In this document: positions 5,836-56,898 of the stretch, piece by piece
How positions within the stretch are numbered: the stretch's first letter is position 1
How the letters are laid out: each line of letters starts with the position of its first letter
From: Lepidurus packardi
Taxonomy: Eukaryota; Arthropoda; Branchiopoda; Notostraca; Triopsidae
Assembly (NCBI GenBank): GCA_023053545.1
Contig: JAKZAN010000005.1
Span: forward strand, 13,330,001-13,394,000
Direction of reading: 5' to 3'
DNA: 64,000 nt
Program-made: the position numbers and the translations under genes
The notes under the pieces: generated by a model
Databases searched by the model: none
What the model was told of the DNA's origin: nothing
Seen by the model: the letters and a program-made list of their open reading frames with translations, nothing else

Positions 5836-8800
5836 ATGTGGTTGTGGTTGATATATGTTTCCATGGCGTACGGTAAGCGACTCATTCTTGACAATCGGAA
5901 TATTTTAGATAAATCGAAGATTTGTCTTGAATTTTTCTTATGAAAATATTTTTAATTTTAATTTCTTCTTTCTAATCTTCTATGAAAATAGTGCGTTAAT
6001 TAATTCCTTGTATAGACAAGCGTTTAGTCAAAATGTATACTAGGAAGTTAGGAATGCGGAGGATTCTCCGGATTTGTTTCACGTCGAACTTTCAGACAGT
6101 TTCTGGAAAGTCTCCAAAAGGCTTAGGAAATCCTTGGAAACGGGCATAATGTTTTTTTTTTCAAAGTTGCAACAATGGAATGGAAAGGCAAGTGATACGT
6201 TGTAATCAATGGATATCTAAAATTTTTGGGAATTTTCTGTCTGTATAATCAAGTGAGTTTTGGAATTTAGACTTGAGCGCCATTGCGGAAGAAATTTACA
6301 ACTCCCCTTATGCAATCTCTCAGAAATCCGCAAGATTTTTCCAGGAATTTTAGGAATTAGTTACAATGTGTCAACTTTGGAATCTTCTGAGTTATCGACA
6401 CTTTGCCGGCAGCGCCAGCGGAAGTAATGTGCAACTCGGTTCAGAACTATACATTTAAACAAATAAACTGCACGGTTTTTTACGCTACAAAATTACGCAA
6501 ACGTATGAGAAATGCTTGGGATAAAGTTAATTTATAATTTCCTACTGTTAAAATATTCCGAGTCGAACGTCAGCGCCATGCCGGCAGTATTACGAGGCTT
6601 TTCTAAAAAAAAACAGGTGACCTAAATTAAAGACATTTGAGGAAAGAGTTCCAACGCGCAATTTGGCCAGGATTTCGCCAACCCCCTTAAACGACCCTCT
6701 AAGCCCCGCCTTTGCAATGCTATCTGAGATGCACGAGAGGGTATATTAGGGTCATCAGGGCTAAACAACTGGAAAGAACCAAAACCTACAAGGGCTGGGA
6801 GCAAAGCGTTTCCCTTTTCTGAAAACGAAAACTCTAAAGAAAACGTATCTAAAATAAAAAATAGAGCTACACCAGCTTGGCAATAACGCTTCCTTCACGG
6901 TTCCCCAAGCTTTACACCCCTTCACCCTTCCCCTTGCCCTTCATAAAAATCTTCATTTACTTCTAAATTTCCTTCTCTAAGAACCCACAAGCTGTAACCC
7001 CAATTAATCCTTTGGCTTCCTTACGAAGTCATTAAATGTTAAATCTACCTTCAAATTTAGAACCACCCCTTTAACGTTCTAAAAAACCATATAGTCTAAA
7101 AAAAATTCCTTCTTAACTTGAGGCTTCAAGTTTTGCTTCTTGCAATCGGACTTCTTTGGATCCCGTTTTCCTATCAAGACATTTAAACCTCTCAAGGCAT
7201 ACGAGATATATTAGCCTCTTAAAATATCCCAATTTTCCTCCACAAAAACTATAAAATATACAACGCGTACAAACATAAATATAACTCATTCCAAGCAGGA
7301 AGTCAAAGTTTTTTCCTCCCAGGCAACATTTCCGCACTAATGACACACATTGTTGACATATCTCCCCGCTTCTTCGTCTTCTCTTTCATTTCCGCTACGA
7401 TCCTTCACATCCAAAGACAACGAGTCGTATAGCAGAACCCGTCGTTATTTTAAGATGGGAGGCACACGAGTACCATCACGTCCTTGAATTACTGCATTTG
7501 ACAAAAGACCCCAAGGGGATTCCCTTGATCATCTCCTCCCTTTATTTCCACCCTCAATTTTTTTTTCTTTTTATCTCACATAAATATCTTTCCAGTCTTT
7601 TTATTTCTAGATCTAGCCCTTCTCATTCATGTTTTTCTTCATTTATTCAGCCCCACAAAGCAAGTGGTTGAGGGATGGCACAGAGCTTCCCCCGAACCCA
7701 AATATAATCTCTTTCCGCGAGCTTCGTTTTTTCCATTTTTTTAAATTATTTTTTTAAAGTAAGAATGATACCGTGAAGAGTTTAAAGATTACAATATGCT
7801 TGTGTGGTGGTGTTTATATTTTCTTTCTGCTTTTTTCGTGCCTCGTTTCACTTTTCTATTGTTGAATTATTACGTTTAGGTGCCTGAGCATGCCAACGTG
7901 GTGGCACACCAAGATGCACCCAACCAACACCTGACGGATACAATATCGCCCAGCGATTTAAATTTTTTTCTTTCCTATCTTCCTTCAGACTATTTTTATT
8001 TCCCTGACTGCTTCGTTAGGGAATATTTTCTTACTCTATTGTCAGACGCCTTTATTTATTCAGGCTTTAAATTCCTAGAAAGAAAACTTGGCATAAAAAA
8101 ATAAGAAAAAAAACAATGGATTTTTTCCCCTTTTAATGTCACATTGTGGAGAGCCCTCATTATTATTGCTTCGCTATGGTTTTTATCCGAGTTTTTCTTT
8201 CCTTTCCACCATTTTGCTGAGGTTTTTAACGGCTGTTGTAGGTTAGGCAAGATCCTGTAACGACTCTCATGATCTCTTTAGCTATGGAGTGCCAAAGAGA
8301 TCACGACAGCACCGCAAAAGAAAATCAAAGAGAAACCAGGCAGAAAGGAATATACAATAACGTTCTTAAAGCGGGTAAAGCAGGCTACGCCAGCGTATTT
8401 TAAAGGCTCCAAAAAACGGAGCGAAAGGAAGAAAAAAAACATGTATAGCGTGCACCGCAGGAAGGCTTCAGCAGTCACAGCAGGCAGCCAGGGCAGGGGC
8501 CTTGTTTTCAGTACTTTTTATTTCTGCCGCTGGCGCTGCAGTCGAACTGACGATAACTCGGAAAGTATTGCAGTTAGAAAATTGAATTTTTTAGGCAAGC
8601 TTGCTATCGTTGTTCTGACGCCAATAACAAGCTTTTGGAAGAGATCTGCAGCAATATCACTGCGCATTTTTTTTATCAGGATCAGAAGAAAAGTCTGTCT
8701 AGTCTCCAAGACTTAAGACTCATGTTAACTTGCCTTTTTTGAGCTTTCATTGTGGGTAGAATTAGAATATAATTTTTTGCTTAATTTATTCTAGTTTCAT

Positions 8801-11800
8801 TTATTTTTATTCATCTAGTTTTATTTATTTATTTATGGCGTTTCAGTCAGTGTCGGTAATGCTTGAATTAAGGAAGCTAGGAGTTTCGTGGATCCAAAGT
8901 AAATTATATAGAAGCGTCTTTGTAAAACAAGCAAGAAAAAATAAACAGGGACCAGCCCGTAATGGAAAAATGGAAATAAATGTCCAAATGGAGAGTTCGA
9001 ATGAGAATTTGATTATTTTAGGAGCGCCAGTGGAACAGATGGCTGAGAGTCGCATGCATCTGAGTCCAGCCAGTAACATCACGGAATTAACCAACATCAT
9101 TTGTGATCTCGAGTCGTGGCCGCGACTACCAGACGCCGCCATCTGTGACAAGTACTACGTCTGCGATGCTCGCTTCGGGTATCTTGCGGCCGAGTACTGT
9201 CCCGAAGGCATGGCTTTCAACATCGGCCAGCAAGAATGCCACTTAAAAGACAGAGTCGACTGCACAACCCGCCCCACATTCCGTAATTTAAAAAGCTTTG
9301 CCGGAATCCTCTTCTTTAAGATAATTGGAATTTCTCTTTCCAGATAACCTACTACCTATTTTTGGGCACGATCACAGTACGATACATTTCCTTTTCTCTT
9401 TCATTTCTAAGCATTTTTTTTCTAACGATTTTGATTAAAACTAGCTGACACACATTTACCAGTCGAAGCACAAAATTTAGTACAGCCCGACTACTCCATT
9501 CTAGGTAAGATCATTGTTATCGAATTTATCAGAGAATTTCTAGCCAATTTTACTTTTGGGGATTACAAAAATTAATTACAATTAAACGGGTAGCTGGAGG
9601 AGTTCCTGGCACAACTACTGGGCAAGGAGGGCAAGCCGCGGGTAACTATATCCTTTTAGAAATTAATTTAAAATCATATCTTCTATTTACGATTAGGTGT
9701 GATTACTGCCGGTACCACAGCTGGTAAAATTTGATTCGTTCTTGTCACCTTAAAAGATCTTAATATCTTATTCTTTGAAGAAAACGTAGTCAGTACTTTG
9801 GCCAATACTTTTACTTTCCCGACCTCGATTCAACTCTCCTTCCCGCAAGCCAGTACCCTTACTATTCCTGCCGGTACCGTCCTATATCTCCCCCAAGGCT
9901 ACACAATTACGGCGGCTGGTAACGTTAGCGGCATTGGATCGCATCACCCTTCTGCTAGTACTACCGGTACTGTTAGTACTTCCGACACTGCTGGTACCAA
10001 CACTGGTGGACTTTTTACTCCCGCCGGTCCAGAAACATTATCGCATCTTACCGCAGAGTTTACAGGCGGATTAATCACCGCTCCCGATACTACTGGAATT
10101 AGTACCGGTACCCATGCAGGCCACGCTGGTCACGCCGGAGCCATTACCTCCATTACTCCCGGTAATTTTACAAGCAAACACATAACAAAGTTTTAGCTTT
10201 ATTAAAACTCGATTTGAAAGGTACGACTGGTACTTCTGCAGGGACTACTGGTACTAATGGAACCCATAATGTGCATCATGACCATCCGGGTGTCATTATC
10301 CCCATTTCTGCGGGTAAGTCTACAGCAATGCATTTGAATACGGGTCAACTAGACACATTAAAAAATAATTTCCCTACAAGCCGATGCTGGTACTCCCGGT
10401 ATTACAACTGGCAGCGATAGTGAGCACCATGCTGGCCATCCAGATTATGCAGGAGCCATAAATTCAATTACTTCCGGTAAGCCGTAACAATTTCTTACCA
10501 TATTATATTTCTGCTTGACAAACAAGCTTTAGGAGGAATAGCTGGTACTTCAGAGGCTGAAGAGAGCCTTTCGAGCGTGCTTGCTGGCACTCCAATTGTT
10601 TCCGTTACCGGCACAGGGTTTCTTGACGGCTCAGGACACCATACGCAACCAGGACACCACGATGTGAATGACTCGACTTGGGCTCACGGGGCAACAAGTG
10701 CCCATCTGTCTCCTCCTCAATCCCTGCCCTCGTCGTCATCAAATCAAGCACCATCCATCACTACCTCCTTGACAAGTCAAAGCCCTGAAGCTACTCAGCA
10801 TGGATCTGGAAGTAATCCCCCCTCCTCCACCACTCGATCTTCCTACGTCTTAGTAATACCATAAAACAAACTTTTCTCTTTTGTCTCTCCTCGCAGGCCT
10901 GGCCAGTCATTCTGCGTCTACAATGACTGATACTTTTTCGGGTGAGCAATGAAAAATTAATTACTTCTTTCCTTATGAAAAGTACACGAATATTGGAATT
11001 CTCTTTCAGGTAGCGGTAATACGGTCGGTACTTCCAACCAGGCGAACGTCTTGCCTGCAAACGCCGGTACTTGGAGCACTACAGGAGGTACAGTTCAATT
11101 TTTAAACTTTAGACCGCAGTAATTAAGCATTTACCGGGTTAATTCTACTTGTATTGCTGTTAAAAAGATGGCAGTAATGCGCCCGGTACTTCCAGTCAGG
11201 CACTACTGGGCCTCTACCTGGTCGAAGGTTTGCTTTCCCAAAGACCCACCAGCTCCTTAGCCAAGGACCAGGGCTTGAAAAACGTGATCCAACTTCTACA
11301 GAAATACAACCCCGGTATAGCTACTTCTCGCAGTCAAGATCCATCCTGGCCCATTCCTAGCCACCGGCTATCAAACCCCAATCACCCAGCTCAGACCAAG
11401 ACTCCCGACCATTCCTGTTCGCCTTTGCAGCAAAATCGCATTCCTGACCGGCTTCAATGCGACAAGTACTATGTCTGCAGTCCTCAGCAAGAATTGCAGC
11501 CTTACTTGTGCCCAGACGGTCTGGTATTTGACCTGCTTCTTGAAGAATGTCACCTTCCTCAAAACGTAGACTGCAGTGACCGCCCCCAACTGCGTAAGAA
11601 AGCACATCTTGATCTTGTTTACTTCTTCAAATTTCTTCCAACGAAATTACTAGACCATCCAGTTTCATAAATTCTTAATTACGACCTACAATTCCCTAAG
11701 ACGGTGTTCAAAGTTCTTCTTAATGTTCTTAAAAACAGAGCCTAGTCAAGGGACTGGCATTTGCCCACGCCTTAACGGGGTTTTTAAGAACCCGGAAGAT

Positions 11801-12499
11801 TGCCAGGAATTTTATATCTGCACGGCGGGAAGTTCTAGAACCGTTAAATGCCCGAGAGGCTTAGCTTTCGATTTCCAGACTGGATCCTGCGTCTCTCCCA
11901 AAATCGCCGGGGTAAGTTACCCTCCCATTTCGAAATAAAATAAAAACTCGTATTTCTGCGTTACAATTGCTTGAAATGTATCGCATTCCAGCTTCCAGGT
12001 TGCGAAAGAGATCCCGATGAAATGCTATGTGAAAGAACAATGAACTTGCCTGTAGGCATGAAGAAACTACAACCAGCTAGCGACGACTGTCGCAGTTATA
12101 TCGAATGCAGCAATGCTGGCCAGTACCAGCGCCGCCAGTGTCCACATGGCCAAGTTTTCAACCCTAAACTAGGATTCTGCGATCTCCCTTCTCGCGTTCC
12201 TAGCTGGTAAAACCTTCTCTTCCAACTTTCTTAATTCTTTGAGCTTTCGAACTTCCTATATCTTCCTATTTCTTATATCTTTTCCTGTCTTTAAAGTCCT
12301 AAAATTTCTTAATTTTCCTTCAACTTCTTCCTATATCCCAAACTTCTTCGAATATCTTTAATTTTCTCCGCACGACTTCGCTCAATGTTCCCTATTTCTT
12401 CCAACTGTATTCTTGCTTTATTTATATTTCTTGGAATTTCTTTCTGGAATTTAATAGTAGTTTTCCTTCTTCTTTTGCAGTGAAAATTACTACTTGTAA
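5836..12499 (+). CDS. Obstructor/CPAP3-like chitin-binding cuticular protein with a Thr/Gly-rich insert
   Basis: Secreted chitin-binding protein with four peritrophin-A (CBM14) domains; likely role is organising cuticle or peritrophic chitin. Exons: 5836-5872, 9022-9282, 9445-9504, 9594-9641, 9697-9723, 9790-10161, 10221-10313, 10381-10476, 10533-10811, 10897-10941, 11010-11087, 11168-11593, 11739-11911, 11992-12206 and 12481-12499. They join in frame to about 742 residues. The first exon encodes a short signal-peptide-like start (MWLWLIYVSMAYG) and is the least certain. CBM14 domain 1 is at 9100-9280; domains 2-4 are at 11420-11585, 11760-11911 plus the next exon, and 12015-12499. The last three domains and the CENYY-like end match the CPAP3/obstructor plan. 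Between domains 1 and 2 lies a Thr/Gly/Ser/His-rich stretch built of small exons that all begin and end in phase 1. The donor at 10811 is a choice among alternatives. Confidence 0.75.
9445..11087 (+). repeat. Array of phase 1-1 Thr/Gly-rich exons inside the chitin-binding gene
   Basis: Nine exons (27, 45, 48, 60, 78, 93, 96, 279 and 372 nt) begin after AG and end before GT in phase 1, so any of them can be skipped or duplicated without a frameshift. They encode related low-complexity motifs such as AGTT, TTGT and AGHAGHAG. The 93- and 96-nt exons share a GT-rich start and a His-rich middle, and the 372-nt exon ends with the same ITSITPG-like tail that closes the 96-nt exon (INSITSG). This looks like internal exon duplication followed by divergence. 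Confidence 0.65.
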
Positions 12500-15630: not shown

Positions 15631-16419
15631 TCATGACCGATGAGCGAAAACAATGACAGACGTCGGCTTCGAGGTTAGTTTCACATTGGCAGGGACAGGA
15701 ATCTCTTGGATGTCGTCGTCGAAAGAAGTTTGGATCACGGTTGCTCTAATTGGAGCGGCGACCAGCGGTCGGGCTTGGGGTTTTTTGAAGGTGAAATTAT
15801 GATTTTTGACATGAACTTGGAATTGCTGCTTGGAGGGCAAGTTTTCCTTGCAAATGAGGCATTGGTAGAGCTTTTCCTGGAAATGGGTCAGGTGGTGGAG
15901 CTTGAGGAGCTGCCGGTACCCAAAGGCTTTGTCGCAGAGTTCGCAGGAAAAAGGTTTTTCGCCCGTATGCGTCCGTTGGTGGGTTTTCAGCTGTTTGGCG
16001 CAGGAAAACTTCTTGAAACACGTGGTGCAGTCGTACGGTTTCTCGCCTGTATGACTGCGTTCGTGGATGACCAGTTGGCCCTTTTGGATGAATTTCTTCC
16101 CGCAGAAATTGCAGGAATGGGGGCGGTCGCCGGTGTGGATCTTCTCGTGACGGTTCAGTTTGCCCGAGTGGACGAACTTTTGCTCGCAGAATTGACAGGA
16201 ATAAGGCTTTTCTAGTGTGTGGCTCCGCCGGTGGACGGTTAGGTTGGCTTTGGAAGAGAACTTCTTGGGGCAGAGGTCACAGGCGTGTGTTTTGGTGACA
16301 AAGTGGTTCCGCTGATGGCGCGTCAGTCGGTTTTTGGTGGGGAAGCACTTTTGGCAAGTGTCGCACTTGAAGAGGGTGAGTGTCACGGGTTCCCGCGAAT
16401 CAGCTGTGGTGTTCGCCAT
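15631..16419 (-). CDS. C2H2 zinc-finger protein, seven fingers, single exon
   Basis: A 262-residue protein from one uninterrupted frame, probably a nuclear DNA-binding transcription factor. Seven C2H2 fingers run in tandem from about residue 17 to 210, each C-x2-C-x12-H-x3-H. Several are joined by the classical linker (HTGEKPY, HTGEKPF, HTGDRPH), which is typical of sequence-specific DNA binders. The seventh finger (YQCLICKENLPSKQQFQVH) lacks the usual core Phe. The N-terminal 16 residues and the basic/hydrophobic tail after residue 210 match no domain I recognise; no ZAD or BTB domain is present. The ATG is the first in frame. The lack of introns among spliced neighbours may mean a retrogene, but single-exon C2H2 genes are common. 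Confidence 0.9.
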   Translation of the reverse strand: MANTTADSREPVTLTLFKCDTCQKCFPTKNRLTRHQRNHFVTKTHACDLCPKKFSSKANLTVHRRSHTLEKPYSCQFCEQKFVHSGKLNRHEKIHTGDRPHSCNFCGKKFIQKGQLVIHERSHTGEKPYDCTTCFKKFSCAKQLKTHQRTHTGEKPFSCELCDKAFGYRQLLKLHHLTHFQEKLYQCLICKENLPSKQQFQVHVKNHNFTFKKPQARPLVAAPIRATVIQTSFDDDIQEIPVPANVKLTSKPTSVIVFAHRS

Positions 16420-28680: not shown

Positions 28681-31600
28681 TCAATCGTATAGTTGAGGTT
28701 CAGCTCTTTTGCTATATTTCCTTTGCAAGGCTCTCACCGACAGATTCTCCAGCATATCTGGGCCTGTTTTGATCTTACTAGCGGCAGCATGACCGACTCC
28801 TAAGCTTGGACTGGCTCCTAGATCCGTCAAAGTCACAATTTCTTTATCGCGGTCTTCGTTTCTGGGCGAAGCTTGAGTTTGAATGGATTTGGCTCTGTTG
28901 GGGGACCTAGCTTCTTGCCCTTGTATACTCCTAAACGAGCTATGGATGGGCCTGGCGCTTCAGAAAAAGAGGGAGAAAACAGAGTATTATTGACAAAATC
29001 CCCTTATTTGTAATCGTTAAGCTAACCTGTATGAAAATAGCTTAAATGATAAGGAAATTTTACCGAGCGGCAAGTCGACGTTGGCTAAACACGTGCAAAG
29101 TCGCACTTCGGCGAAACTGATGCTGAGAGCGAACGGTGGGCGGTGGTACGATCGCAGTAGCTATAATTTGTTCCACTCTGTCCGAGCTGGAACGAGAAGA
29201 GTCATTACCCACAATAGGCGTTCCTCTTCGGGTCATCGAAGTTCGATCATCTCTGGAGGAACCTTCATCATTTGCCCGCCAAAACAAACAGATTATACAG
29301 AATTTTAATTCTAATTCATTGCCCTGGATTTGGTAAAAAGCAAATAGCAGGCAGGTCAAGTAAACAAAAAGGAGAGTTGGGGTAGAACAATAGGGAGAGA
29401 TGTTTTGCAAAAAACATTTACGGCGCAAAACGGAGGTTAAAGTATGTCGAACCGAGCGAGGAAAGCGGCGAAGACGGTTCGAAACCGGGTTCAGGAACGG
29501 TGCAGTTGATATTGTGTAGAGAATCGGGTTAATGGCGGCGTTTAATGGTAGTACAAACACTGCCACCCAAGCGAATACCTTTTGGGAAGAAATGAGCTTA
29601 TTAAATGCAGGATTTCGCCAGTTTTTAGGTCTTCGACATTTTTTATTCGTCTAAAACGGGATGATCTTTTACTTGAGGTGGGACGGTGGCGCCACCTAGT
29701 GAGGCAACTCCCAAGGCGATGATGGGTAGCCAACACGCGGCGTCCGTGACAACAATCAAAGTCATGCGGTGAGCCATGCTTTGGTCTTCGCGGCGGCCAT
29801 GTTGGCTGCTGACTGCCCGTTGGGTGTTTTTGGCGACTAGATACATCCATAAGTAGCAAACCGCTATAACGCACATCGAAAGGAAGTTGAGCACTATGAA
29901 ACCGACATTATAGTATTAGTGTAAGAATTGCCGTATTGGTTTAAGGCTTCCAGTCACGTAGTTTTATGTTTTACCAATAAAGATGAAGACAGAGTATTCC
30001 CAGCCGCTATGTTTCTCTGGGGTTATATGTAAGGGTAAACACACCCCGGAGCGTCCGTAAAAGTTCCTAAAGACGTATTGAAATGAGGGAAAAGGCCAAG
30101 TTTAAGGCTTATCTGTTCAGGATGTAAAGTTTACGTGAAGTAATCGATGTCTAAGAGAGGTAGAGCTGCTAGTAAGGTGACGAAAAGCCACCCAAGCATC
30201 ATGGTCAACCTGGTACGTTTTATGTTAAGGCGAGTGTCCCGGAAAGGGAAGATTATGACCAGGAATCGATCTAAAGTTATAACTGGGAAGAATTTAGCAT
30301 GAAACATTCTTATTATTCATTAATTAAGCATTGTTTTTATTGCGTAGTGAAATTCTGTAAATGAGTGAAAGCTCTCTCTGACTCGTGGAGTCAAAGCCAA
30401 TGCGACTGTCTCATTCTTACGTCGAGCACAAGTATATTAAGTTGTAGTACCTGTGAGAGTATAGACGGATAATTCGGACGAAAAGGTCGACATGAAGCCG
30501 GCTAATTGACAAAGGGAGGACACCCGCCAGGATTGCTCATGGACCGCATAACTTCCGCGGTAATGAACGTCCGCGATGGCGATAACGATGAGATAAATTC
30601 CCATACAGAGATCACCCACGGCTAAATTAATGGTCAGACAAGAATGCGCCCTACAAAGTAATAAATCAAACCTTAACTTAATAAACTCATGCTTTAAAAG
30701 AGAAGTATTTTATCTCAGAAATGATTCATCTCTCTTATCATTAGTTTCGCCTTTCCACTGTATAGTGCGAGCTTAGAAGGTTGAAAAACCCGATTTTTTC
30801 TAATTTGCATGGCAATTTAGCTATACTCCAGGCAGTTATAACTTCTAAGATTTAGTTTTCGTATGCAATTTATTGGTGAATTTCTTTCGACTCCGTTAAG
30901 CTTCGCAAGACACTTTTAGATTCTTAATTTTGTATTCAACAAAGCTAATGACTTCGGAGTCTCTAAAAGTCATCAGTGTGCAAGCCTGTTTGACGTAATC
31001 GCATTAAAAAGGATTAATCGTCAATCTAAAAGCTTCATTATCTGAACTATTTGAGCCCTGTTTTGTTAAAAATCGTAATTGTAGCTTATGTTAAGCCTAG
31101 TAACCCTTTGAAGGTATCCGAAAGTGTCGAAATTTAGCTCCCGTTGAAGCTGGAAAGCTTTCAGAGGTTAACTGAGTTAACCTTGCCAAGAAAGAAAGGA
31201 AAACGGATGCAAAGAGCAGATATTCGTCACATTTTCACGTCGTCCTTATTGATCTCTATTGTCAATTGAAGGGAATTTGGAGTCAATTGAAGGGAATGTT
31301 GTCAATAGAGTCAGTTGAAGTGCAGTTCTTTAGTGGGAATTCTGAATTTTTTAGAAGAAGTTGCCCTGGGAGACCCGGAGCTGCCCGCGAGCGTTTTCAA
31401 TGAATAGTAAAAGTTATACTACTCACCTGTTGCTCATACGATGAGTCATGCGCCAGAATATAACGAGTATGTTCCCTCCCGTAGCTAGCAAACCCAAGAT
31501 CCACACGCAAACACGGAGGACGAGGTTGGACATGAGATCTTCGCAAGAGGAAAATTCATCTTTCGGAGGAGAGCAATGCGACACGTGTCTCGCTAGGCAA

Positions 31601-34600
31601 CAGAAACGGAATTCATCCGTCGACCTGTTTTTTTTTAAGAGGCTGTTAAATTAGCATGTTCCACGGCTGAAATTTGCCAAATCGATAAGCTGAAAAAAAT
31701 TGTCTTTGCTTTGCTTTCAGTTTCTAATTATTCTGGTAAAAATAGTGAATCTGACTTTTAGTAAGTCAATAATATTTCTGCGTTGATTCTATTAATTTTT
31801 TTGGGGGGGAGATTGATGGATTGATACTTGCAGCATTCGAAGTGAAGTCAAACTGCGGAAGATTTGGCTCGGTAAGGTTTGAAAGGCATTGCGCGATAAA
31901 TCCCTTTAATGAAACCAAATAATTGCAAAAAAAAATCATTCAAAATTCATCAAAATCCTCTCATTTTTCAAAGTAGTTTTGATACGCACAGTTTTTGGAG
32001 TTTCAAGCCACTGAAGGTTTGTTCGTCTAAATGGGTTAACTTGTTGGACGAGAGATCCCTAAAGAATATAGCAAATGTACCATATATTCCTAGAAAATTC
32101 AGCATAATTTTTAATTAATTCATACTAATTTATATGTATGTTAATAATAATAATACTTTGTTCATTTCACTTAAGAAAAAGGGCAACTTACAGGTTGCTT
32201 AGTTTGCGTAAACCCACAAAAGCATCGACCGCAACGTATTCTATGGCCTGGCCAGCCAAATTTCTGTTTCAATTAGAGGAAACAAGGTTTGAAACATGAG
32301 TTGGACAGGACGCAATAAAATTAGAGAGGTGGAATGAAAGGTAAATTCCGTTTAGAGGGTTGACTCACAAGCTAGCCAAGGAAGAGAGACCGTAAAACGC
32401 GTAAGATTCCAAGATTTGTATGCCGTTGAAATCCAAATGCCTGTCGCAGAATAGAGTAAAAGACCATGTTAAATAGATCTTTAGCGTAAATGTCTGGTAA
32501 GAAGATCAACTGACTTACAATGCTTGGAGATTCCCTAATCCCAAAAACGTGCCGTTCCCAATGACACGGAGAGAGTTGTGCTCCAAGTGGAGTACTCGGA
32601 GCTTCCACAGGTTGCGGAATAAGCCCACGGGCAGTTGAGTAAAGCTGTTGTTCTTCAAATCCCTGCAAGAAACTTGGTCGGTCTAATTGAGCTCAGTCTT
32701 GAAAAGGGAATTTACAGTAAGACGATGCGCGTCAAATGTTCGAAAGATCTCCCACTTATGGATTCATTGAGACAATTACCAGCCAAGTGACTGTGCGAAT
32801 GGAGTTTAGGAATTATTTTTGACAAGGAAATGGCTATTTTCTTGAATCTTACAAGCGAGAAATGGCGACTTCCACGTGTTGCGGTACGCGCGTCAGACCC
32901 AAGCCGGTACAGTTGATGTTTATGTCCCAACAAGGACATTGAGGCATGTCTTCAGCACAACTAAACGCTTTTATAGTACCAAAAAAAAGAAAAGTGGAGT
33001 GGGTTGTTTTTATTGGATGCTTGGTACTCAGAGGGTGTGGATTTTTTCTTTTTCTTTAAGCTTTCAATATAGAGTGCATTACGGGTTCAGCGATCTGTTT
33101 TTGATTACTTCTTGTGGAGTAAAAAATGCATTCCACACGGCCTACGGTACTATGCAGGTTCTAAGGGGTGCATAGGGCGCTGGGAGCGTTCGTTGGGAAA
33201 TAATTGCTTCCGAAATTGGTTGTGAAAGAAAGGTCGTTGCCTAGGAACCGTACTCGTGTTTATACTAGGCTAACGTTGACTTGCGTGTGTATACCCTTTC
33301 CGACTTACGGATTTCAACATATGGAAGCCACTGAGCTTATGTGCATTCATTTCTAGCAATTGTCCCAATCAAAGAAGTCCTTTGAACTTTTTTTGTAACT
33401 TGCTTAGTTCTCGAGATATTGTGGGTTTAAAAAAGGGTGGGTGTGGTCGCCTAGGGCTATGATGACGTCACGCTGACTTATTTCTTACTTTAAGTCGGAA
33501 AGGATTTGTCATAGAATATTGAGCAGTATATTTTCTGAACCTGTTCATCATCCTGGATCTTCTCCTGACTTCTTTTTTTTCACTTTTCTTTTTATATAGA
33601 ATTTGAAATGGTTTAACTCTTTTTTATGTAACTTACGGCATAGGTCTTCATCCGTCCACGTCCCTTTGCAGTCAATTTGTCCATTGCAAACTAACTGGGC
33701 TTCCAAACAGGGTCCATACAAGCACTTGTACATACCCAGGGGGCACATAAAGTTTTCTGTCAGGAATGTTTAGGACCCCAAATGAGACTTGTCTCTTGAA
33801 AAGATTTTGATTTTTTTTATTTGATTTTTTACTGCATTGACTTAAATGAGATCCGTCGGCACAGCCACGCTGGGACTTGTCTGCGGAAATGAAGCAGACT
33901 TGCGATAAGGGGATGCATTGTCCGTTGAGGCAGCGAAACTCGTCTACTTGACACGTAACATTGCGATCTGAATAAGCCCAAGTAAAAATAGAATTTATTC
34001 TTATTTATTGGGCAGAAAAATGGCCAGCAGAACGTACTGCAAAACCGCTCGTCGGATTGGTCAATGCAGTCCTTATGGTAGTCGCACCATCGTTCTTCTG
34101 GTACACAAACTCCGTTGAGGCAACCCCTGGTTCCTTCAGGGCACGTGGTATCTTTATTATTGAGGTGTTCAAAGTAAAAATAAATGAGAGAGAAATTGGG
34201 ATGATGTGAGACGCTTTGAAGCCAAAATGTCATTAATTTCTGAAAGGTATTGGTGGAATTCTTTACTACAACGCATTTCGTCGCTCTTATCCACGCAGTC
34301 GTACTTCCCATCGCACGTCAAGTTCCCTCTTACGCATTGTTGGTTGTTGCACTCGAATTCCTCAGGATTACATGGCAGGAAATCTATTTTTTGATCCACG
34401 AAAAAGAAATCACGAGAAATCTGGGATTAGCCTTGGTTAATTATTCCGTCAGTGCACTACGTTCTCTTTTCGTTCTTTTTAGTTTTCTACAAGAATTAGT
34501 TTACGTTCGTATTAACGTGGAAGCTTTTAAGGCTCAATTAGATTAGCGCTTCAATCGATCAAAAGCGAAAACATTTTTTTTTTATTTTATTTTTTTACCA

Positions 34601-37600
34601 CAATCTTCTTCGTCTTCGCCGTGAAGGCAGTCGACGTGGAAATCGCACTGTAAACTGGCAGGTAAACAGCGAGGATCGGACGTGCCAGTACAGCAAAACA
34701 ACTCTTCCTGGCTACTGTTGACTTGCGGATGCAGATCTGGGAAAAGAAAGCACAAATGTTCGGGTTATTCAGATTTGACGAGTCTTGAATGTTGAGCATA
34801 GGTCAATTGCTGCAGATTTAAGAAATATTGCAAGTTCTAGAGCCACTTTGGGAATTGGTTCAATGCGTTTTGAACTCATTATGTTTTGCTTTGACAAGAA
34901 AAAGGGGCTCGAATGTTGCTACGAAAGCAACGGCTCAATCGAATTACTGCAGCAATGTGGGCAGTTGTGGGGAAGATTCTAGAGCTTTTATGAAGTTATG
35001 AGTACAGTCTGAGAAGGTATCACCTGATAGTTCGGTCGAAGCGTTTGGGCAGCCGTATTCGTCTGAATAAAGTCCGCCGTTGTAGCAATCATTGTGTCCG
35101 TCGCAGATGTATTCCGAGGAAATGCAGCGGAAGCTTTCAAGTGGCCGGTACGTGTTGTAGCACTGCAAGCTCGCTCCCATGTTACAACGTTTATGACCTA
35201 TTTAAGAAAAGAAAGAACAAGGCTATTCTGTCGTTGTGTGAACGTAAGTTTTCGGGAAAATGGACTTGGATCGGTCTTTTACCTCTGGTGGAAGAGTACA
35301 AGTTTTGGCAATGTGTTTCGTCCTCACAGGTGCCAGCACAATCGCAAAAGGCGTCACAGATTTGAGCAGGACGTAAACAACGGTTATTTTGGCACTTGAA
35401 ACTCCCTTCAGGACAAGTTCCACCTGATATGCATGGATATTTTAGTTTGAAACTTGAAATTAAATTAAAACTCGTTCCAAGCTTACAAAGCGTCTCATCC
35501 GTGTGGTTCCCTTTGCATTCAGGCCAGTCGTCGCACCAAAATTGCCTGTGAACACGAGATCCGTCCTCGCAGATAGCAAAATCATCTATAAAAAAGTGTC
35601 CCGTACTTGGTAAATGCTCTCTAGAAACGCTCCCAATCCATTCAAGTTAGCTTTTCTTTTTTTTCATTTTTACGGGGTCTGCTTATTTTTTTTACTATTT
35701 TTTGCATAGCTAGTTTGGCTTCTGGCAGTAATATGCCGCCGGGTTGAGCCATCGGTTTAAAGCCGTTGCTGTGCTGATTTGAGAGTGCAATATTCTGCAT
35801 TTCGTAACTTGCATAGTATTTGACGAGCTTTTATAGGCAATTAACATGGTGCCATTGTGTTTTTTTGCCATTATAATTCTGCAGCTGTATTATATTTCTG
35901 CAGCCTTGTTTTCAAACCCAAGTTTGAAAGCCAAATATTTGCTGAAGAAGCTTTTTTCCGTTCGGAATGGGGGGAGGGAAGGCTGAAACTTGAGAGGTGT
36001 TTGGGAAACTTGTTGGATCCTTTCTTAAATTAGCCGATCGAAAAGCCAGTTGAAAAGGATTTCCCTTTCGCGTAGCTAGGTGGGTGGAAGTAAATCACTG
36101 TACTACTGTACGTGGGAGACAGAAGGATGGATACAATTGGCATTGTTATGGCTCGGGGTGGATGGTTTAAATGATGAGCGAGGAAAAGCGCGGGAATGTG
36201 GGAAAAGCGTCATAGATGTCATAGGTTTTATCTCCACGTACGTGCTGGGAAATAGCCGAGACAAAAAAGGGAAGGTTAATTATGGCAGAGTTGTGTTTCC
36301 TCCGGTATCCAGAATGATTATAGCTACTGCGTTTTTTTATGTATAGTTATGCATCCGGCCCAAAAAACCCCCGAAATTGCTCAGCGAGAGAGAGAGAAGT
36401 GGGAGACTATGCGAGTTTTACATAGTTGGGCGAAACAGATGCTGGGATTCTCACGTGAGTAGGAAGCAGAGTCGGTAGGACCTTAATTGCGTTATATTAC
36501 GACGGGGAAAAAAATCGTAAAGAATTATCCTTTCCGTCCTTGCATAAGGAAAAAATATGGGAAATGAGTGTCTTTTTTTAGGTGAAACGTAAAATAATTC
36601 ATGGAAATTATTCTCTGGGGTGGTAAATAGGAGCGTCAGTGTTGATGAGTGGGAGGAAATTCCTTTTGCTTTGGAAAATTTCCTACACTTTAATTGGTTA
36701 CCAAATTACAAGTGAGACAGGGTGCGTGTGAACCAATAGATGGTGCGGTTAGCTAGGAGTTAATAGTGCCGATAGTGGCGGTTGTTAAGTCAAATTGCTT
36801 GGCGTATCTTGTTGGGGTAAGAGAGTTTGGGGGGAAGGTTTACCGATCCGTGGTCGATAAGGCAGTTTTTTTTTTTTTTTTTTTGGTACCTGTTGAGCAG
36901 TGCTGTTCATCGGAGCCGTCTATGCAATGCTTATGCCCGTCGCACACCAATCCGGGCCGAGTACATTGCCCGTTCAAGCAGCGAAACTCGCCGTACCAGC
37001 ATCGACGTCGTTCTGACGCGTGGAAGAAAAAGTCAAAAGAAAGCGTGCTTTTAGTGTCTTCATTCTTGAAATTTGAACCAAAGTTCCTTATTTGAGTTAC
37101 CAAGTCTACCGTTTCTTAACAGGAAAAGGACGAAAGGATTCGAAAGGATTGAAACAGGCAGATGAGCGTAAGGGGACTCGATGACGATGGCAAACAATTT
37201 GTATCATAAACGGCAGCACTTTTCCTGGTGATAGTACTTCTAAACCAGTTTCGCTTCAAACCTTTAATTCAGTTCCTCGAACCTTCTTATTGAGACGCTG
37301 ATTGATGTCCGTTCTTTTGGCCGCCCTTTCATTAGGGGATTCTTGCAGAGATTTCGAAATGGCGTTGAAAGGGACGGAATTACAGCTGTTTTGGGGGGCA
37401 TGGAAGAAAAAGAAGACCGAAGGAAAATTCGACTTACGACAAGACTTTTCGTCCGAGTTGTCACCGCAATCATCCACGAAATTACAGAAGGCTTCTTCAG
37501 GGATGCAGTAATGATTGTCACACTTGGAATGTGTCGAGGGACAGGTGTACAGTTCTATAGGAAATCAGACAAGTTTTCCGTCTTTTCATTTCCCGCACTT

Positions 37601-39174: not shown

Positions 39175-39686
39175 TTCTTTGTCTTCTTCTAAACTAAGTA
39201 TTTCTTCGCAGTATTTCTAAACTCCCAGAGATAAGGTCCTTAATTTTCAAGTTAATTCTTGACACGTGTCGACGTTGACATGGAATTTGATACAAAATAA
39301 GGTTGGACAGTACCCAATTGACTGAGAAACAAGTGTAAAGGGCCGGAACTGTAACTGAAGCACGAAAGATCTTCGTCCAAGGGCTTTTATGAGGCGGAGG
39401 TCGTGGGGGTTTACCACTGCGCCTGCGCTGAGGTGGGAACGTATAAAAAGGAGCTCAGAATTGGGCAGAAAATCAAGTTAACACTCGCGTTTAGTGAGGA
39501 AGAGAGAAATTGAAGGTCTTACTCGGAACCAATCTATTAATTAATTGATCTAACTTGTTTCCTCGCGCTATTAACGGTTAATTTCTCAGTTTTTAATGGC
39601 AAAATTCTGGAACATTTTTCTCATTTTATTATTTCATTCAGGGGTATTCTTTGTTTAGCACGTGGAATTCTGGAGGCAAAGGAACG
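39175..39686. promoter_or_regulatory. Divergent promoter region with a TATA box facing EXOSC1
   Basis: The receptor (-) and EXOSC1 (+) start codons face away from each other across 512 bases. TATAAAAAG at 39442-39450 is oriented toward EXOSC1, with a likely start site about 30 bases downstream. The ATG of EXOSC1 lies about 240 bases after the TATA box. A CAG at 39640, after a pyrimidine-rich run, suggests an intron in the 5' leader. Confidence 0.5.
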
Positions 39687-41123
39687 ATGGCGACCACAGA
39701 GCCTATGTATACTATCCCAGGTAAGCTTTCTAACAATTCGTGTGTTTATTAGGTATTTTGGAAATCGTTGAATTAAAAGGTGATTTTTTCTTTAATTTTT
39801 TTTTATTCAAGGACAAAGGATTTGTGCGTTGGATGAAGAGCACGTGGCAGGAGAAGGAACCTATGCTCGACAAGGATATATTATTTCGACATTATTGGGC
39901 CTAGTGCGGTTGAAAAACATTTCCGAGAATCCGAAGGTATCAAAACTCGCATCGTTTTCTTTCTTATAGAGGTATTAACCTACAGAAGCGAAGACACTCG
40001 GTCGTTAACCGTTTTCGGGTTTTCTTATCTCATACTACCACTTTTTCAAGAATTAACGAGTTCGTTAATTAACACAACAGCTGTTTCTAGATCGTTAAAG
40101 CTTTGAATTCCTGAACTTTCCTTTAAAATTCGTCTCCAGATCTCCATTTACAAGGGTATTAAGCGCTCTAATTAAGAGCGCTAGAAAATTGTTGAGCGTT
40201 AGGCAATCTTCGGGAAGAGTGGGAATAAGAGTGGGGCGTGGGTTACAGAGCGGTCTGACCAGTTTGAGTGTCCTGGGGAGTCCACCGTGTTGCAACAATA
40301 GGAGAAATGAGATCAGGCGATTCGAGAGTGTGTTTGATCTTTTGATTCGATGACTCGGGCTAGAGGAAAATGTTGACCATGCTTTACATTGATTGTTGAC
40401 CTTTTTAGTAACTGCATTGACTTAACTCTTCAGACTTGTTTGAATGCGGGAAAAGGTTTCGAGCGAGATTTTCAAGCGGTTTCTTGATTCCTTGCATTTT
40501 TCTGGCTAGAGAGTACTGGTTCAAGTTCATCCGCTGAAAAAACCGGCAGTGGTTCCAGCCGCGGGCGACGTGGTTACAGCGAAAGTCATGTCGGTGAATC
40601 CACGCTTCGTCAAAGTGTCCATCTTGTGCGTCAAGGAGTACAACTTGGCGGAGCCCTTTCACGGGCTAATTCGTAAAGAAGACGTTCGAGCCACGGAGAA
40701 AGATAAAGTGGAACTGGGGAAAAGTTTCCGACCTGGCGACGTCATTCTAGCGCGGGTGGTAAGGAGAAAGAAACGAGAAGGGATCCAAAATTAAACCGTT
40801 AAGTTTTATGATTGTAGTTGTCATTGGGAGACGCTTCGGCATATCTACTGACAACGGCTGAAAACGAGCTGGGCGTTGTCATGGCTAGCAGCGAATCCGG
40901 TAACTAAGAGTTTTCATGTCCATTAGCTGCAAAATCAAATGTTTCCTTATTTTTGTCCTGCGCTTTTACTTTGATAGGAGTATTGATGGTGCCGGTTGGC
41001 TGGGAGGAAATGCAGTGTCCTGTAACTTTCCTAAAGCAGTACCGGAAAGTGGCCAAGGTAATAAGCTTAGACGAGAAGCAGCTTACCGGGGAAGGTCCGC
41101 TGTCTTCCGAAAGAAAAGTATAA
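39687..41123 (+). CDS. EXOSC1: RNA exosome cap subunit CSL4
   Basis: CSL4 is one of three S1/KH cap proteins of the nuclear and cytoplasmic RNA exosome, which degrades and trims RNA 3' ends. Exons: 39687-39720, 39812-39936, 40510-40758, 40818-40899 and 40978-41123, joined in frame to 211 residues, near the usual CSL4 length. The N-terminal domain begins MYTIPGQRICALDEEHVAGEGTY-like, with the conserved G-Y and LLG segment. The S1 domain covers about residues 60-155, including PAAGDVVTAKVMSVNPRFV, GLIRKEDVRATEKD and FRPGDVILARVLSLGD. The C-terminal zinc-ribbon-like part (MVPVGWEEMQCPVT) follows; only one Cys is visible there, so the metal site appears lost, as in other animal CSL4 proteins. Confidence 0.93.
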
Positions 41124-41656
41124 GACTAGATGTGTAAAGAGTGTTCTGTGTTGCGTTTATAAATATCTTTCCAAGAAAAATAGCCGTTATTTTCAGTTGA
41201 GGAAATGGATGTCAGCCATTTTTAACAGATCAGAAATGGTTTAAAACGAGGTTTTGGTGCAATTTTGAAAGGTCTTTCCAGTGGTTTTTCTTCGAACTTG
41301 AATTTGGCGCTCTCAATAATTCTAGTTCAGCCATCTGTAAAAATCTAGTTCCTATTCATGGGAAGAAATTTAACCCTTCGATTGTGTCCCTACATTCTTT
41401 AGTGAAATTATATACATTTTTAGTCCAGTTCCTCCTAGAAACAATGCAACGGATTCTTTCCACATTTGAATTTAGCGTCTAAAAGTGTGAATTGATTCTT
41501 CTTACCGGGAACGCCATCTATGGAGCTAAGCTGTCACCACGTATTGAGCCTAATACACTGCAATGGCGAACGTTTTGTTGTGGCTGCAGTGACTTTTCCG
41601 ACGTTTCACAACTTTTGGTGCAAATTAGCTAACTAAGGGACCTTTTTAGCGTATAA
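41124..41656. other. Intergenic region between EXOSC1 and TCERG1
   Basis: This holds the EXOSC1 3' end and the TCERG1 upstream region, on the same strand. I see no further gene. Confidence 0.6.
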
Positions 41657-44600
41657 ATGTATGACTCTGAAGATAATAACGACTTCGAAGAAGGTAATGT
41701 TCTTTACAATCTCTTATTTTCATCGTAATCTCTTAAAAATATGAGCCTTATTAATTCCATTTCCAAGCAACGTATTTCTCCACTCTTGTTGGAAACATTT
41801 CAATCAATAGACAACACCTAAAGCTATCTGCTTTTTGTTAAATTAAATTCCATGTTAATATCACGTGTGAGTTATCTTTTAGGACCATAATATAGCATTT
41901 TTTCTTAAGTTTTCTCTGAATGCACTGAATTTATTTGCATTTGTATGGCGTTTTTAGATGACCGTGGGAACATGCCAAATGAAAACCCAGAACCTCCACC
42001 AGTAGGCCGGAACTTTCATCCGCCAACCCGACCTGGTTGGACTCCAAGACCAGGTTTTCAACCCAGAATGGGTTTCAGACCTCGTTTTCCTCCTCGAGGT
42101 CCCCCCTACATGGATGGTAACATTGCGACAACTCAAAATTAGAGTTCCCAACGCACATTAACTCACTTGGTGTGTCTTTCTAAAGGTCCTCCTCCACCGA
42201 TGGGTGGCCCTTATGGCGGTCCACGTGGTCCAGGAGGTCCTGGTCCCCGGTTTGGCCCTCCTGGACCCAACTTTGATTATGGAGACGGTTGGGGACCTGG
42301 TCCTAATGCTCCTCTCCGTGGTCCACCCCCTATGGTAGTTTCATTGTGCTCTTTTCCACTATTTTATTCCGTTTTTTTAGACTATTTCAGTCAAATCTTT
42401 CAAGTTTCTGATCTATTTTAGTGTATATAAACTCACCTTCATCGTTTTTATGTTTACAAATGTTCACATTGGTCTATTTTTCAGGGTGGTCCGCCTCGTA
42501 TGGGCATGCCGAACCTCTCAGCCCCGCCCCCTAACTCCGGCCCCCCTTTTTACCCTCCTCCAACGGGTTCCAACGCTCCTTCCAGCTTTCCCAGCACGCC
42601 AGGCGCTCCAGGGACTTTACCGCCCGATTTGCAAGGCGAAGTTTGGGTGGAAACCAAAGCTGGCGAAGGGAAGTCGTATTTTTACCACGTGAAGACCCGG
42701 GAGACAACCTGGGCCAAGCCAGAGGGGCCCAACGTCAAGATCTTGACTCAGCCCCAGCTCGAAGCCATGGTCCAAGCGGCTGGCATGCCTAATCAACAAC
42801 AAAACTTGCCTGGGACCCAACAATACCCCGGAATGGGTCAAGATCCGCCCAAATCCGATGTTCCTATGTTCAACCCGGCGTTTCCTCCACCGAACATGCA
42901 GAATATGCATCCTCCGATGAATCTGGGGGGTCCTCCACCTAATATCTCGGCTTTGGCGCAACAAGCAGGGGCCTGGGCGGCTGGAGTGGGCTACGGAGCC
43001 CCGCCTGCCATGTCTCAGCACGTGCCGACACCCACCGCGGTCGCAGAATGGACTGAGCACATCTCTCCTGATGGGAAACCGTACTATTACAATGCTAAAA
43101 CGGGCGAATCGGTTTGGGAAAAGCCGGCAGCCATGAAAAGTGGGCTTGGAGCGATGAATGGAACGGTTCTACAACCCGTACCTGCTCCTACGATGCAAAT
43201 GACCTTATCCCAGCCTGGAAGGTACAGCGTGAATGAGATTTTACTGTTTTTAAATGGTATTTTTTAAGTTCTTTTGTTTTTCTTTCTTCCTAGTGGAATT
43301 GTGGCAGAAGCTAAGCCCATGGCCAAGGAAACGAAACTGGATGATAACAGCAAAGGAGATAAGTCGAGGCCAATCATGTCTACGCCAGTTCCTGGCACTC
43401 CATGGTAATGAGTTCATTCATTGAGGTTCATTAAGGGTTAATTCCAGAACAGTGCGTTTTTTTCATGAATGGGTTGATTATTCCTGAAAAAAGGATTGAC
43501 TACGCTGGAAAAGCTTTCTAAGACAGCAAAATTGGCTTTGATCGAGAGTAATCGATTTTTTAAGGAAATGTTTAAGAAGAAATTTAATTTTCCTTATTTA
43601 AAAAAATGTATTTTAATTTTTTTTTTTATTTAGGTGTGTGGTGTGGACAGGCGATCTACGTGTCTTTTTTTACAATCCTTCTACTCGGACGTCCATCTGG
43701 GAGCGTCCGCCTGATCTCGTGGGGCGTGTGGACGTGGATAAGCTGGTAGCCACGCCTCCTGGTGGGGCTCCCGCTCCGTTAGCGCCTGTCGCAGCCCCTA
43801 ATGCCATTGCAACTGTAACTGTTGCCCCCCTGGCGACATTAGTTGCTCCTAGCCAGTTAACTGTCATTGATCCGGGAGCAGCTGTCCCTGGCACGCAAGA
43901 AGTGGTGAAACTCGACGATGATTCCGAAGAGGAAGAGTCAGGCGAACCGAGCGCCAAACGCGTCAAGTTGGATGTGAGCGAAGACAGCCAAGAAGCGCCC
44001 GGAATGGCGGCGGAACTTCCCACAGAAGTGGTGGAGATTGACGCGCCGGAAGTGAAAGACGCGGCGGTGGAAGCGGAGGCTAAAGCAGCAAAGCAAAGAG
44101 CGTTGATTCCGCTGGATACACGAATGGCGCAGTTTCGAGAAATGTTGGTGGAGAAAGAAGTATCGGCCTTTTCTACATGGGAGAAGGAATTGCATAAGAT
44201 CGTTTTTGATGCGAGATATTTGCTCTTGACGTCGAAGGAAAGAAAGCAAGTCTTCGAGAAGTATGTGAAAGAGCGAGCCGAGGAGGAGAAGAAGGAGAAG
44301 AAGAGCAAGTTGAAGGAGCGACGCGACGAGTACCGGCAATTGTTGGAAGAAGCCAAACTGGTGGGCAAGTGAGTAGTTTTTCTTTATTCTTAAGTCTTTT
44401 TTTAGCCCTTTTCGGGATATTCCTTGAGAACTGGTAGATTTACCGGTTTTGACAAATATAACAAAGTTGCTCGACGAATGCACTGAGTGCTGAACTGGTT
44501 CGACACTGGTTCAGCACTGGGGCGCACCGAGTCCTGCACTGAGTGCAGTCGTCCGGTGCTATTTTCCGGAAATTGTTTTAAAAATAGGTCAACTGAGCTT

Positions 44601-47600: not shown

Positions 47601-47809
47601 TCAGCCACAAGACGTTGAAAGCCGTCGATGACAATCCGCAAGTGCTCCAAGACTTGGAAGAGCGTTTGACCAACGATAAGCGCTACTTGGTACTGGAACC
47701 GCTGGCATCCGATCGCAAGTCCTTGTTGATGGCTTACTTGGAAGATTTGGATCGTCGAGGCCCTCCCCCTCCGCCCACCGCCACTGAACCCAATCGGCGA
47801 GGAAAGTAA
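41657..47809 (+). CDS. TCERG1: Transcription elongation regulator 1 (CA150)
   Basis: A nuclear protein that couples RNA polymerase II elongation to splicing: WW domains bind proline-rich splicing factors and FF domains bind the phosphorylated polymerase tail. Exons: 41657-41693, 41958-42116, 42186-42334, 42485-43221, 43294-43404, 43634-44368, 44649-44799, 46004-47077, 47142-47219 and 47588-47809, about 1,150 residues. A Pro/Gly-rich N-terminus precedes WW1 ([20 protein letters not shown]), WW2 ([20 protein letters not shown]) and WW3 ([18 protein letters not shown]). FF1 begins at [10 protein letters not shown]2 at the [15 protein letters not shown] exon, FF3 at [12 protein letters not shown]4-FF6 follow, ending in [19 protein letters not shown], the family signature. 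Between FF3 and FF4 is a Lys/Arg/Glu-rich insertion of about 170 residues, far longer than in vertebrate TCERG1. The Gln/Ala repeat of vertebrates is absent. Confidence 0.95.
45230..45540. other. GC-rich island inside a TCERG1 intron
   Basis: In an otherwise AT-rich 1.2-kb intron (44800-46003), this block is rich in GC and CpG, carries two CCAAT motifs near 45497-45508, and keeps open frames of 65 codons (+, 45272-45469) and 84 codons (-, 45262-45516). Neither frame resembles a family I know. It could be a cryptic promoter, an alternative exon or an inserted element. Confidence 0.4.
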
Positions 47810-48073
47810 GAATCGAGCGAGCGTGAGTAAACACAAAAAAGGAAGGGTTTTTTTAACTACTTTTTTGCCATTTGATGAAGAATCTTGGGGGCGCGAACGG
47901 GGGATTCATGTTTTGTATTTCATTCGGAAGATGTCTCGCATTTTTTTTAATCCATTACACCTCCCTTACCCCCAACCGTAATTAATACAAACTTAGGTTC
48001 ATTCGTGGTGAAAAAGGGTTTCAAACTATGGCTGGTATTTCTTTTTACAATTCAGTGCATTCTTTTGATGTTT
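47810..48073. other. Short intergenic gap between converging genes
   Basis: TCERG1 (+) and the F-box gene (-) end 264 bases apart, so their 3' untranslated regions probably abut or overlap. No other feature seen. Confidence 0.6.
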
Positions 48074-56134: not shown

Positions 56135-56898
56135 TTTTGCGATTCGGGGACTGAGATGTCAAACACCGTATAGCGAACTGGTTTACTTTGAGCGGTCCGA
56201 TTTCGGGTGTGGGTGAAATGCGAAAGGCGAAACGACACATCGTCAAATGCAAGCGAAAAGTACGAATTGAATTGCAGTGCAGCTTTGGAGTTCGACTTTG
56301 TGTCTTATCATAGAATTTTTAAATACTGACCACTGAGTAGAATTATAACAATCGTTTCCACATAGCCTTCAATGACCTTTCGAATGAAGATTCTTAACTT
56401 AAATGTCAGTAAAGTTGAGGATTGTTTTCGAAGACATTTTTTATAGGTCTTGTGCAAATCAAATCAGGCTTCAAACTAATGTATCGTGGATTATTTAAGG
56501 AATTTGTAAAATGTATTTAAACATGCTGTACAATTATTTCCCTTTACAAATAAAATTGGTAACACTTCTTTCTTAGGCTCACTTAAATAAACTCCCAGTA
56601 ATAATTAATTCGAGGAATAAAACGTCTATGGTTAACATTGTCAAGGTAAAGAAGCTCATAATAGCCTTTTCACACTTCCTAATAAAATGCGAAACGGCAA
56701 AATGCGAAATGACATTTTAGTCGCCTTCCGAAATTTATCCTCACCCTTCGATTCCCTTCACTATGGAATCCCCCTGGTTTGCGGTTCGACGTTTCCCATA
56801 AAACTATAAAGCGCACGCCCCCCGCTGCCATAATTTGTTTCTTAGCGCTGCCTTTATGTTGTGTCTCGAAGGTGTTTTGGACGACTTTTCAGTTCATT
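56135..56898. promoter_or_regulatory. Divergent promoter region of ATP synthase e and GOLGA7
   Basis: 764 bases separate two outward-facing start codons. The region is AT-rich in the middle, with a GC-richer block near 56805-56890 just before the GOLGA7 ATG. I see no confident TATA box. Confidence 0.45.

Follow-up and report, generated by a model that had tools for sequence, protein, structure and literature searches.

The 64,000-nucleotide window of the Lepidurus packardi genome analysed here (the whole stretch of DNA, on whose numbering all positions below are given) contains what appears to be a CPAP3/obstructor-like gene for a predicted secreted cuticle chitin-binding protein, in which an array of ten small exons, all of phase 1-1, encodes a low-complexity linker. 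We give an even chance to the reading that one CPAP3/obstructor-type gene would yield a four-domain product here, consisting of a chitin-binding head encoded by exon E1, a spacer linker of 466 residues and a triplet of chitin-binding domains encoded by E11-E14. The assembly to which the window belongs comprises 108.6 Mb in 344 contigs. It contains at least 118 matches to CBM_14 (150 of 158 candidates scored) and at least 150 to Chitin_bind_4 (150 of 266 scored), which mark it as that of an arthropod. The gene is modelled from the following features, in which splice-site scores are given where they bear on the model and a slash marks an exon border.

5836..5872, + strand: E0, candidate first coding exon (MWLWLIYVSMAYG), with an ATG and a hydrophobic stretch, ending in phase 1 at donor ACG/GTAAGC (5.53)
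9022..9282, + strand: E1, additional CBD1-type chitin-binding domain, phase 1-1 (Pfam CBM_14, E 3.9e-07; start acceptor 5.31)
9344..9376, + strand: array exon, 33 nt, HNLLPIFGHDH, phase 1-1 (gene finder; acceptor 4.65, donor 2.87)
9445..9504, + strand: E2, array exon, 60 nt, phase 1-1 (gene finder; weak acceptor, 1.23)
9594..9641, + strand: E3, array exon, 48 nt, phase 1-1 (gene finder; weak acceptor, 0.5)
9697..9723, + strand: E4, array exon, 27 nt, phase 1-1 (gene finder)
9790..10161, + strand: E5, array exon, 372 nt, phase 1-1 (a second in-frame acceptor would start the exon at 9781; end related to E6 and E7)
10221..10313, + strand: E6, array exon, 93 nt, phase 1-1 (gene finder)
10381..10476, + strand: E7, array exon, 96 nt, phase 1-1 (gene finder; weak acceptor, -0.61)
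10533..10811, + strand: E8, array exon, 279 nt, phase 1-1 (gene finder)
10897..10941, + strand: E9, array exon, 45 nt, phase 1-1 (gene finder)
11010..11087, + strand: E10, array exon, 78 nt, phase 1-1 (36-nt repeat in common with the start of E11)
11168..11593, + strand: E11, linker end and first triplet domain, phase 1-1 (weak acceptor, -1.14; CBM_14; tree)
11739..11911, + strand: E12, second triplet domain, phase 1 in and phase 0 out (CBM_14; tree; finder)
11992..12206, + strand: E13, third triplet domain, to the phase-2 donor CTG/GTAAAA (finder; tree)
12481..12499, + strand: E14, last coding exon, 19 nt, CENYYL-stop (the finder's two wider runs; acceptor 7.16, donor 6.19)

At the 5' end, E0, a candidate signal-peptide exon, and the start of E1 at 9022 are inferred by us from the sequence, beyond the gene finder's parse. 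The wider finder runs use the E0 donor from a later ATG (5863), place other exons between E0 and E1, and start the E1 exon at 8949 or 8847 with the identical donor at 9282; that the finder neither joins E0 to E1 nor gives the start at 9022 counts against the four-domain form. The first intron of the gene as modelled is 3.1 kb long. At the 3' end, a first model that closed the gene at 12210 (VPSW-stop) was replaced by one using E14, on which the finder and several paralogues agree. With E14, the third domain of the canonical triplet has six Cys, the sixth being supplied by this exon, and CENYY, CETYY or CEDYY stands at the same C-terminal place in several paralogue models.

The training set of the finder consisted of 46 introns (median 65.5 nt) predicted in seven unrelated PF00118 chaperonin-subunit (CCT) genes of the same genome, whose structures had been modelled with generic splice profiles. 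The finder carries no phase preference, and 8900-12300 as well as every locus overlapping it were held out from training. An unsupervised training on 184 kb was discarded, as the splice profiles drifted to meaningless ones. The first-pass annotation had described nine consecutive exons of 27-372 nt with AG/GT borders, all of phase 1-1 (E2-E10), and these are present in the sequence: the finder recovered all nine in the held-out target, eight with identical borders and E5 with its acceptor at 9781 instead of 9790, 9 nt upstream. It also added a tenth phase 1-1 exon (9344-9376) missed in that annotation. Phase 0 accounts for 28 of the 46 training introns, and 2 of the 39 internal exons of these genes are 1-1. 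Uninterrupted 1-1 internal exons number 11 in the target (E11 included) and at most 5 in any of 93 gene models from the other fetched loci. Five of the 11 acceptors of the array and E11 (E2, E3, E5 at 9790, E7 and E11) score lower than every one of the 46 training acceptors, which were scored with a profile built from those same acceptors; the same is true of 4 of 19 acceptors in predicted paralogue genes, and the alternative E5 acceptor, at 9781, is a strong one (4.65). The individual exons have low codon log-odds, from -0.06 (9344 exon) to 0.30. Both the weak acceptors and the low log-odds speak against the four-domain long form.

The coding parse was scored as the gain over skipping the region, with the E1 donor and the E11 acceptor fixed. 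The array gains 187.0, a value reached by none of 200 dinucleotide shuffles (mean 33.6, sd 12.4, maximum 83.1), and the first intron of the gene itself, sampled in 14 segments (seven positions on each of the two strands), gains 7.9-33.6. Among 380 overlapping segments of the window, 27 reach 187, 26 of which overlap a predicted gene model on the same strand, and none has eight or more exons that are all 1-1. The longest open frame of the array is 153 codons; one of the 234 segments that are no more open reaches 187 (at 191.5), as do none of the 178 segments with an open frame of up to 124 codons. As the long exon E5 might have produced this result by itself, the sequences on its two sides were also scored separately; the gains, 24.0 before E5 and 101.8 after it, were reached by none of 500 shuffles in either case. 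For the part after E5, a single shuffle of the 500 equalled or exceeded the real sequence in exon number with every exon in phase 1-1. Furthermore, all 16 GGTA copies lying wholly within exons begin at codon position 1, over seven exons (E11 to 11390 included), and a further seven, which cross exon ends, are necessarily in phase (23/23 when they are counted). The length of 10 of the 11 introns is not a multiple of three, and 367 counted codons pass without a stop in the chosen frame, compared with 9 and 16 stops in the other two frames of the same exons.

The array exons are thus coding-like, as had been proposed, with a gain above all shuffles, a single codon offset of the internal GGTA copies and no stops. 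That the stretch is instead a non-coding intron, with exons arising by chance, would fit the low codon log-odds of single exons and the antisense strand, which gains 114.1, above the shuffle maximum, with 2 of 9 exons of phase 1-1, and which also weighs against the long form; given the shuffle results for the array and for each of its halves, the GGTA offset and the stop counts, we regard this explanation as extremely improbable.

CBM_14 (Pfam) matches E1 at 3.9e-07 and three stretches in E11-E13 at 3.8e-32, and no Pfam family matches the array insert above cut-off. A search of the insert against its own genome at E up to 1 returned six matches only, all at the array locus, and E10-E14 had no relative in a scan of viral contigs. 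In trees with the domains of paralogues, E12 falls with CBD2 rows, E1 and E11 fall with six CBD1 rows and E13 with seven CBD3 rows, with support of 95/88 and 85/96, respectively, in the first tree and 94/89 and 93/96 in the second, where the CBD forks carry no star, the bootstrap was still unsettled and long branches lead to E1, E11 and E13. The domain tree keeps all 25 typed rows and omits CBD1 of the minus-strand L050 and L051 genes (models incomplete there), CBD3 of L054 (broken up) and the whole plus-strand L052 gene. As judged from these matches and trees, E1 is an extra CBD1-type domain and E11-E14 are the usual CBD1-CBD2-CBD3 triplet. The linker between the domains of E11 and E12 has 14 residues, that between E1 and E11 has 466. 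The insert had been placed between two chitin-binding domains, which is correct for E1 and E11, but according to the tree it precedes an intact CPAP3 triplet and does not lie within one.

The sister relation of E1 and E11 is neither rejected nor established (p-AU 0.37 and 0.33), and the first tree groups E1 with the CBD1 of another locus, L053_1 (89/82), short of full support, rather than with E11. This grouping would agree with two genes or a decaying fusion, in which E0-E1 are the remnant of an upstream gene and the array with E11-E14 forms an independent gene that has a start of its own. We consider such an arrangement quite unlikely, as the finder runs on from E1 into the array across an intron of usual size (61 nt, from E1 to the 9344 exon).

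E1 adds a fourth CBM_14 domain if it is joined to E11 in one transcript, and does not if E1 and E11 are alternatives. The two exons are of the same CBD1 type, both 1-1 and thus phase-compatible. As splice alternatives, E0-E1-E12-E13-E14 would encode an ordinary three-domain CPAP3, and the other transcript, skipping E1, would carry the array and E11 as a long N-terminal extension. The former combination reads as a complete canonical CPAP3 of 234 residues in which the split Gln codon C/AG is restored. Alternative obstructor exons are moreover known, in the available text of the two reports, from Drosophila, where obst-E has two splice variants (a/b) and similar exons 2 and 3 (PMC5226733), and from Tribolium, where TcCPAP3-C has alternative exons 5a and 5b (PMC3504105). 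Against this stands the position of the array, which lies between both exons and not ahead of both, and the C kept at the E1 donor is equally expected from common descent. We treat mutually exclusive use of E1 and E11 as the strongest rival, with a probability clearly below that of the four-domain form.

The four-domain reading, like the alternative one, builds on exons with phase-1 borders, for which the paralogues offer a partial explanation. The intron after CBD1 is of phase 1 in all six paralogue models that have one there, in four of which it splits a Gln codon as C/AG or C/AA; the two L050 genes lack this intron, and the plus-strand L052 gene was left out of the count. Both E1 and E11 retain the C of the split Gln codon at their donors. 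As CBD1 exons are flanked by phase-1 introns, duplication of CBD1 carries phase-1 borders along, and all exons of the array may be 1-1 partly because the CBD1 exons of CPAP3 genes have phase-1 introns on either side. The L050 locus (G000:C6:298501-308000) contains two divergent, adjoining CPAP3-like genes near C6:302536-304611, with the triplet match in one open frame, and inter-domain introns therefore seem absent in both.

A second contribution to the common phase may come from the repeats themselves. Repeat family D2 contains both exonic copies of ATTACTGCCGGTACC and the donors of E5 and E7 (ATTACTCCCG/GTAAT and ATTACTTCCG/GTAAG). Taking as donor-grade every GT that scores no lower than the weakest training donor, 15 of 15 such sites lying wholly within array exons are compatible with phase 1, versus 19 of 55 in CCT exons; a count of 18/18 includes three sites at exon starts that are in phase by construction. 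The internal sites are phase-1 compatible because Gly-Thr (GGT-AC) reads as a phase-1 donor too, and we propose that copies of the repeat thereby bring, or can become, donors that leave the frame intact. Synonymous recodings (500 for each codon usage) contain 6.5 +/- 2.3 in-phase donor-grade sites with CCT usage (1/500 reach the observed 15), 5.1 +/- 2.0 with the usage of the other window genes (0/500) and 9.6 +/- 2.6 with the array's own usage (17/500). Out-of-phase donor-grade sites are rare in the recodings as well, with none in 121, 174 and 238 of 500; their absence from the array is thus mostly set by the amino acids. Codon choice contributes an excess of in-phase donor-grade sites, the repeat copies being non-independent, and this excess may be a by-product of repeat duplication.

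We hypothesize, as a proposal that we hold to be improbable though worth stating, that the repeat is locked to the splice phase: expansion of GGT-AC would itself make frame-safe exons and donors and give many linker lengths, with codon choice keeping the donors. The linker lengths between the chitin-binding heads would then vary through the skipping of exons and through splicing at internal in-phase donors.

Duplication as the origin of the array is supported by sequence for five exons (E5, E6, E7, E10 and E11). In a first pass over 55 exon pairs, the observed similarity was matched in 0 of 1000 shuffles for E5/E7 and E3/E7, 4 for E6/E7, 6 for the 9344 exon and E10, 13 for E5/E6 and 22 for E10/E11. 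A later shuffle test used stretches picked after this first pass, in which 41 of the 55 pairs had scored high enough to be shuffled, and returned 0 of 20000 shuffles for the end of E5 and E7, 18 for E6/E7, 77 for the end of E5 and E6, and a suggestive 147 for E3/E7; E7/E8 and the end of E5 with E8 are within chance (4862 and 19240 of 20000). The counts of this later test are uncorrected for the choice of stretches. The start of E11 matches E10 at 26 of 34 nt (0/2000 shuffles), and the common repeat begins at the acceptor AG. The end of E5, together with E6 and E7, has the appearance of a single unit, ending at the donor, that was copied. The repeated exon duplication suggested in the first-pass annotation is accordingly supported for the end of E5, E6 and E7 and for E10 and the start of E11, weakly for E3, and not for the 9344 exon, E2, E4, E8 and E9, as the remaining exons appear to have mainly composition in common.

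The linker exons had also been described as freely skippable, which is borne out as regards frame: all 1024 subsets of the ten array exons keep the frame without a stop. The array could be a true isoform generator, in which stage- or tissue-regulated skipping tunes the length of the linker, and this would be compatible with either the four-domain or the alternative arrangement. Consistent with such a role, in addition to the 1024 in-frame subsets, are the five of 11 acceptors weaker than any training acceptor, which would fit variable inclusion, the four of ten exons under 50 nt and the 15 in-phase internal donor-grade sites. However, the keeping of frame follows from phase 1 and requires no regulation, the predicted LDL-receptor class A gene in the window also has a run of eight phase 1-1 exons, as is ordinary in modular extracellular genes, and the weak acceptors may only mean that the profile fits this family less well, given the 4 of 19 in predicted paralogues. 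We regard a regulated isoform generator as doubtful, though somewhat less so than the phase-locked repeat.

In the four-domain form, the linker extends over 466 residues without Cys from the last Cys of E1 to the first Cys of E11, about 377 of which are encoded by the ten small exons, and the modelled full-length product has 753 residues. The linker is rich in T (15.7 percent), G (12.9), S (12.7), A (9.7), P (7.5) and H (6.0; 28 His), is most likely disordered, and is perhaps O-glycosylated on Thr/Ser. It could act as a spacer, with the E1 head binding one chitin fibril and the triplet another, and the 28 His would possibly add metal-, pH- or quinone-linked cross-linking. Crayfish CPAP3A has been suggested, in the part of the report available, to link several chitin strands (PMC5799365), and a tethered fourth head would lengthen the reach of such linking. 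If the long form is made, it would represent a chitin cross-linker with a reach settable by splicing, in a family that shapes the arthropod cuticle. The locus would then also be a concrete test case for the birth of symmetric exon rows: as the repeat motif itself holds an in-phase splice donor, the growth of repeats and the birth of exons may be a single process.

In its three CBM_14 domains of CBD1-CBD2-CBD3 order, short spacing within this triplet, C-E-N-Y-Y ending as in the paralogues, and phase-1 introns around CBD1, the predicted gene resembles CPAP3/obstructor (gasp) genes, whose proteins are described in the available text as having three ChtBD2 domains and small linkers (PMC3504105). 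It differs from these in the fourth CBD1-type domain in front and in the Cys-free linker that an exon array encodes. Larger linkers are shared by CPAP3J of crayfish and Drosophila, and in crayfish J1/J2 also a low-complexity region predicted to be disordered, but CPAP3J is described, in the accessible portion of the report, with three domains and with neither an exon array nor an extra CBD1, and the word exon is absent from that text (PMC5799365). The first-pass annotation knew of no CPAP3/obstructor protein with such an insert; no exon array turned up in the open-access papers searched, which agrees with that statement, whereas larger linkers and low-complexity regions predicted to be disordered are on record for CPAP3J, again from the available text (PMC5799365). 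The possible alternative exons are shared with obst-E and TcCPAP3-C, and the similar exon pair of obst-E recalls E1/E11, while a mini-exon array between the alternative exons is not described in the parts of these reports at hand (PMC5226733, PMC3504105).

Schistosome micro-exon genes, as characterized in the available text (PMC8293314), likewise have rows of symmetric exons, mainly of up to 36 nt, that can be dropped without change of frame. By this limit, the label 'micro-exon' given to the array in the first-pass annotation suits two of its ten exons (27 and 33 nt) and not the others, in contrast to symmetry, which is common to 10/10. Among established ideas are proto-splice sites, intronization and a preference of mobile domains for phase 1 (PMC3488318), and the array resembles extracellular modules with phase-1 introns as treated in that paper; here the symmetric exons encode a low-complexity linker. 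A search of the open-access literature for the exon array, the four-domain form or micro-exons together with chitin binding found none among the papers listed. What appears new at this locus is the phase-1 compatibility of all 15 internal donor-grade GTs, from which the hypothesis of the phase-locked repeat is drawn.

Several other genes are predicted in the window. A single-exon gene encoding a C2H2 zinc-finger protein lies at 15631-16419 (- strand). At 28681-35752 (- strand), the LDL-receptor class A gene with its eight phase 1-1 exons is followed downstream by a model with leucine-rich repeats and a rhodopsin-type 7TM domain, and the two are possibly one LDLa-LRR-GPCR gene split by the finder. 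The model at 39389-48106 (+ strand) is one that we take to resemble the elongation regulator TCERG1, an F-box protein model (Pfam) is located at 48074-50876 (- strand), and 56854-63950 (- strand) presumably encodes two tandem heme-peroxidase-like proteins, predicted as one gene. Elsewhere in the assembly, contigs C1, C2, C4, C5, C6, C21 and C38 contain many COX1 matches with internal TGA codons, which have the look of mitochondrial DNA copied into the nucleus. Stop-free COX1 matches occur in contigs C43, C52 and C214, which suggests the presence of bacterial contigs within the assembly.
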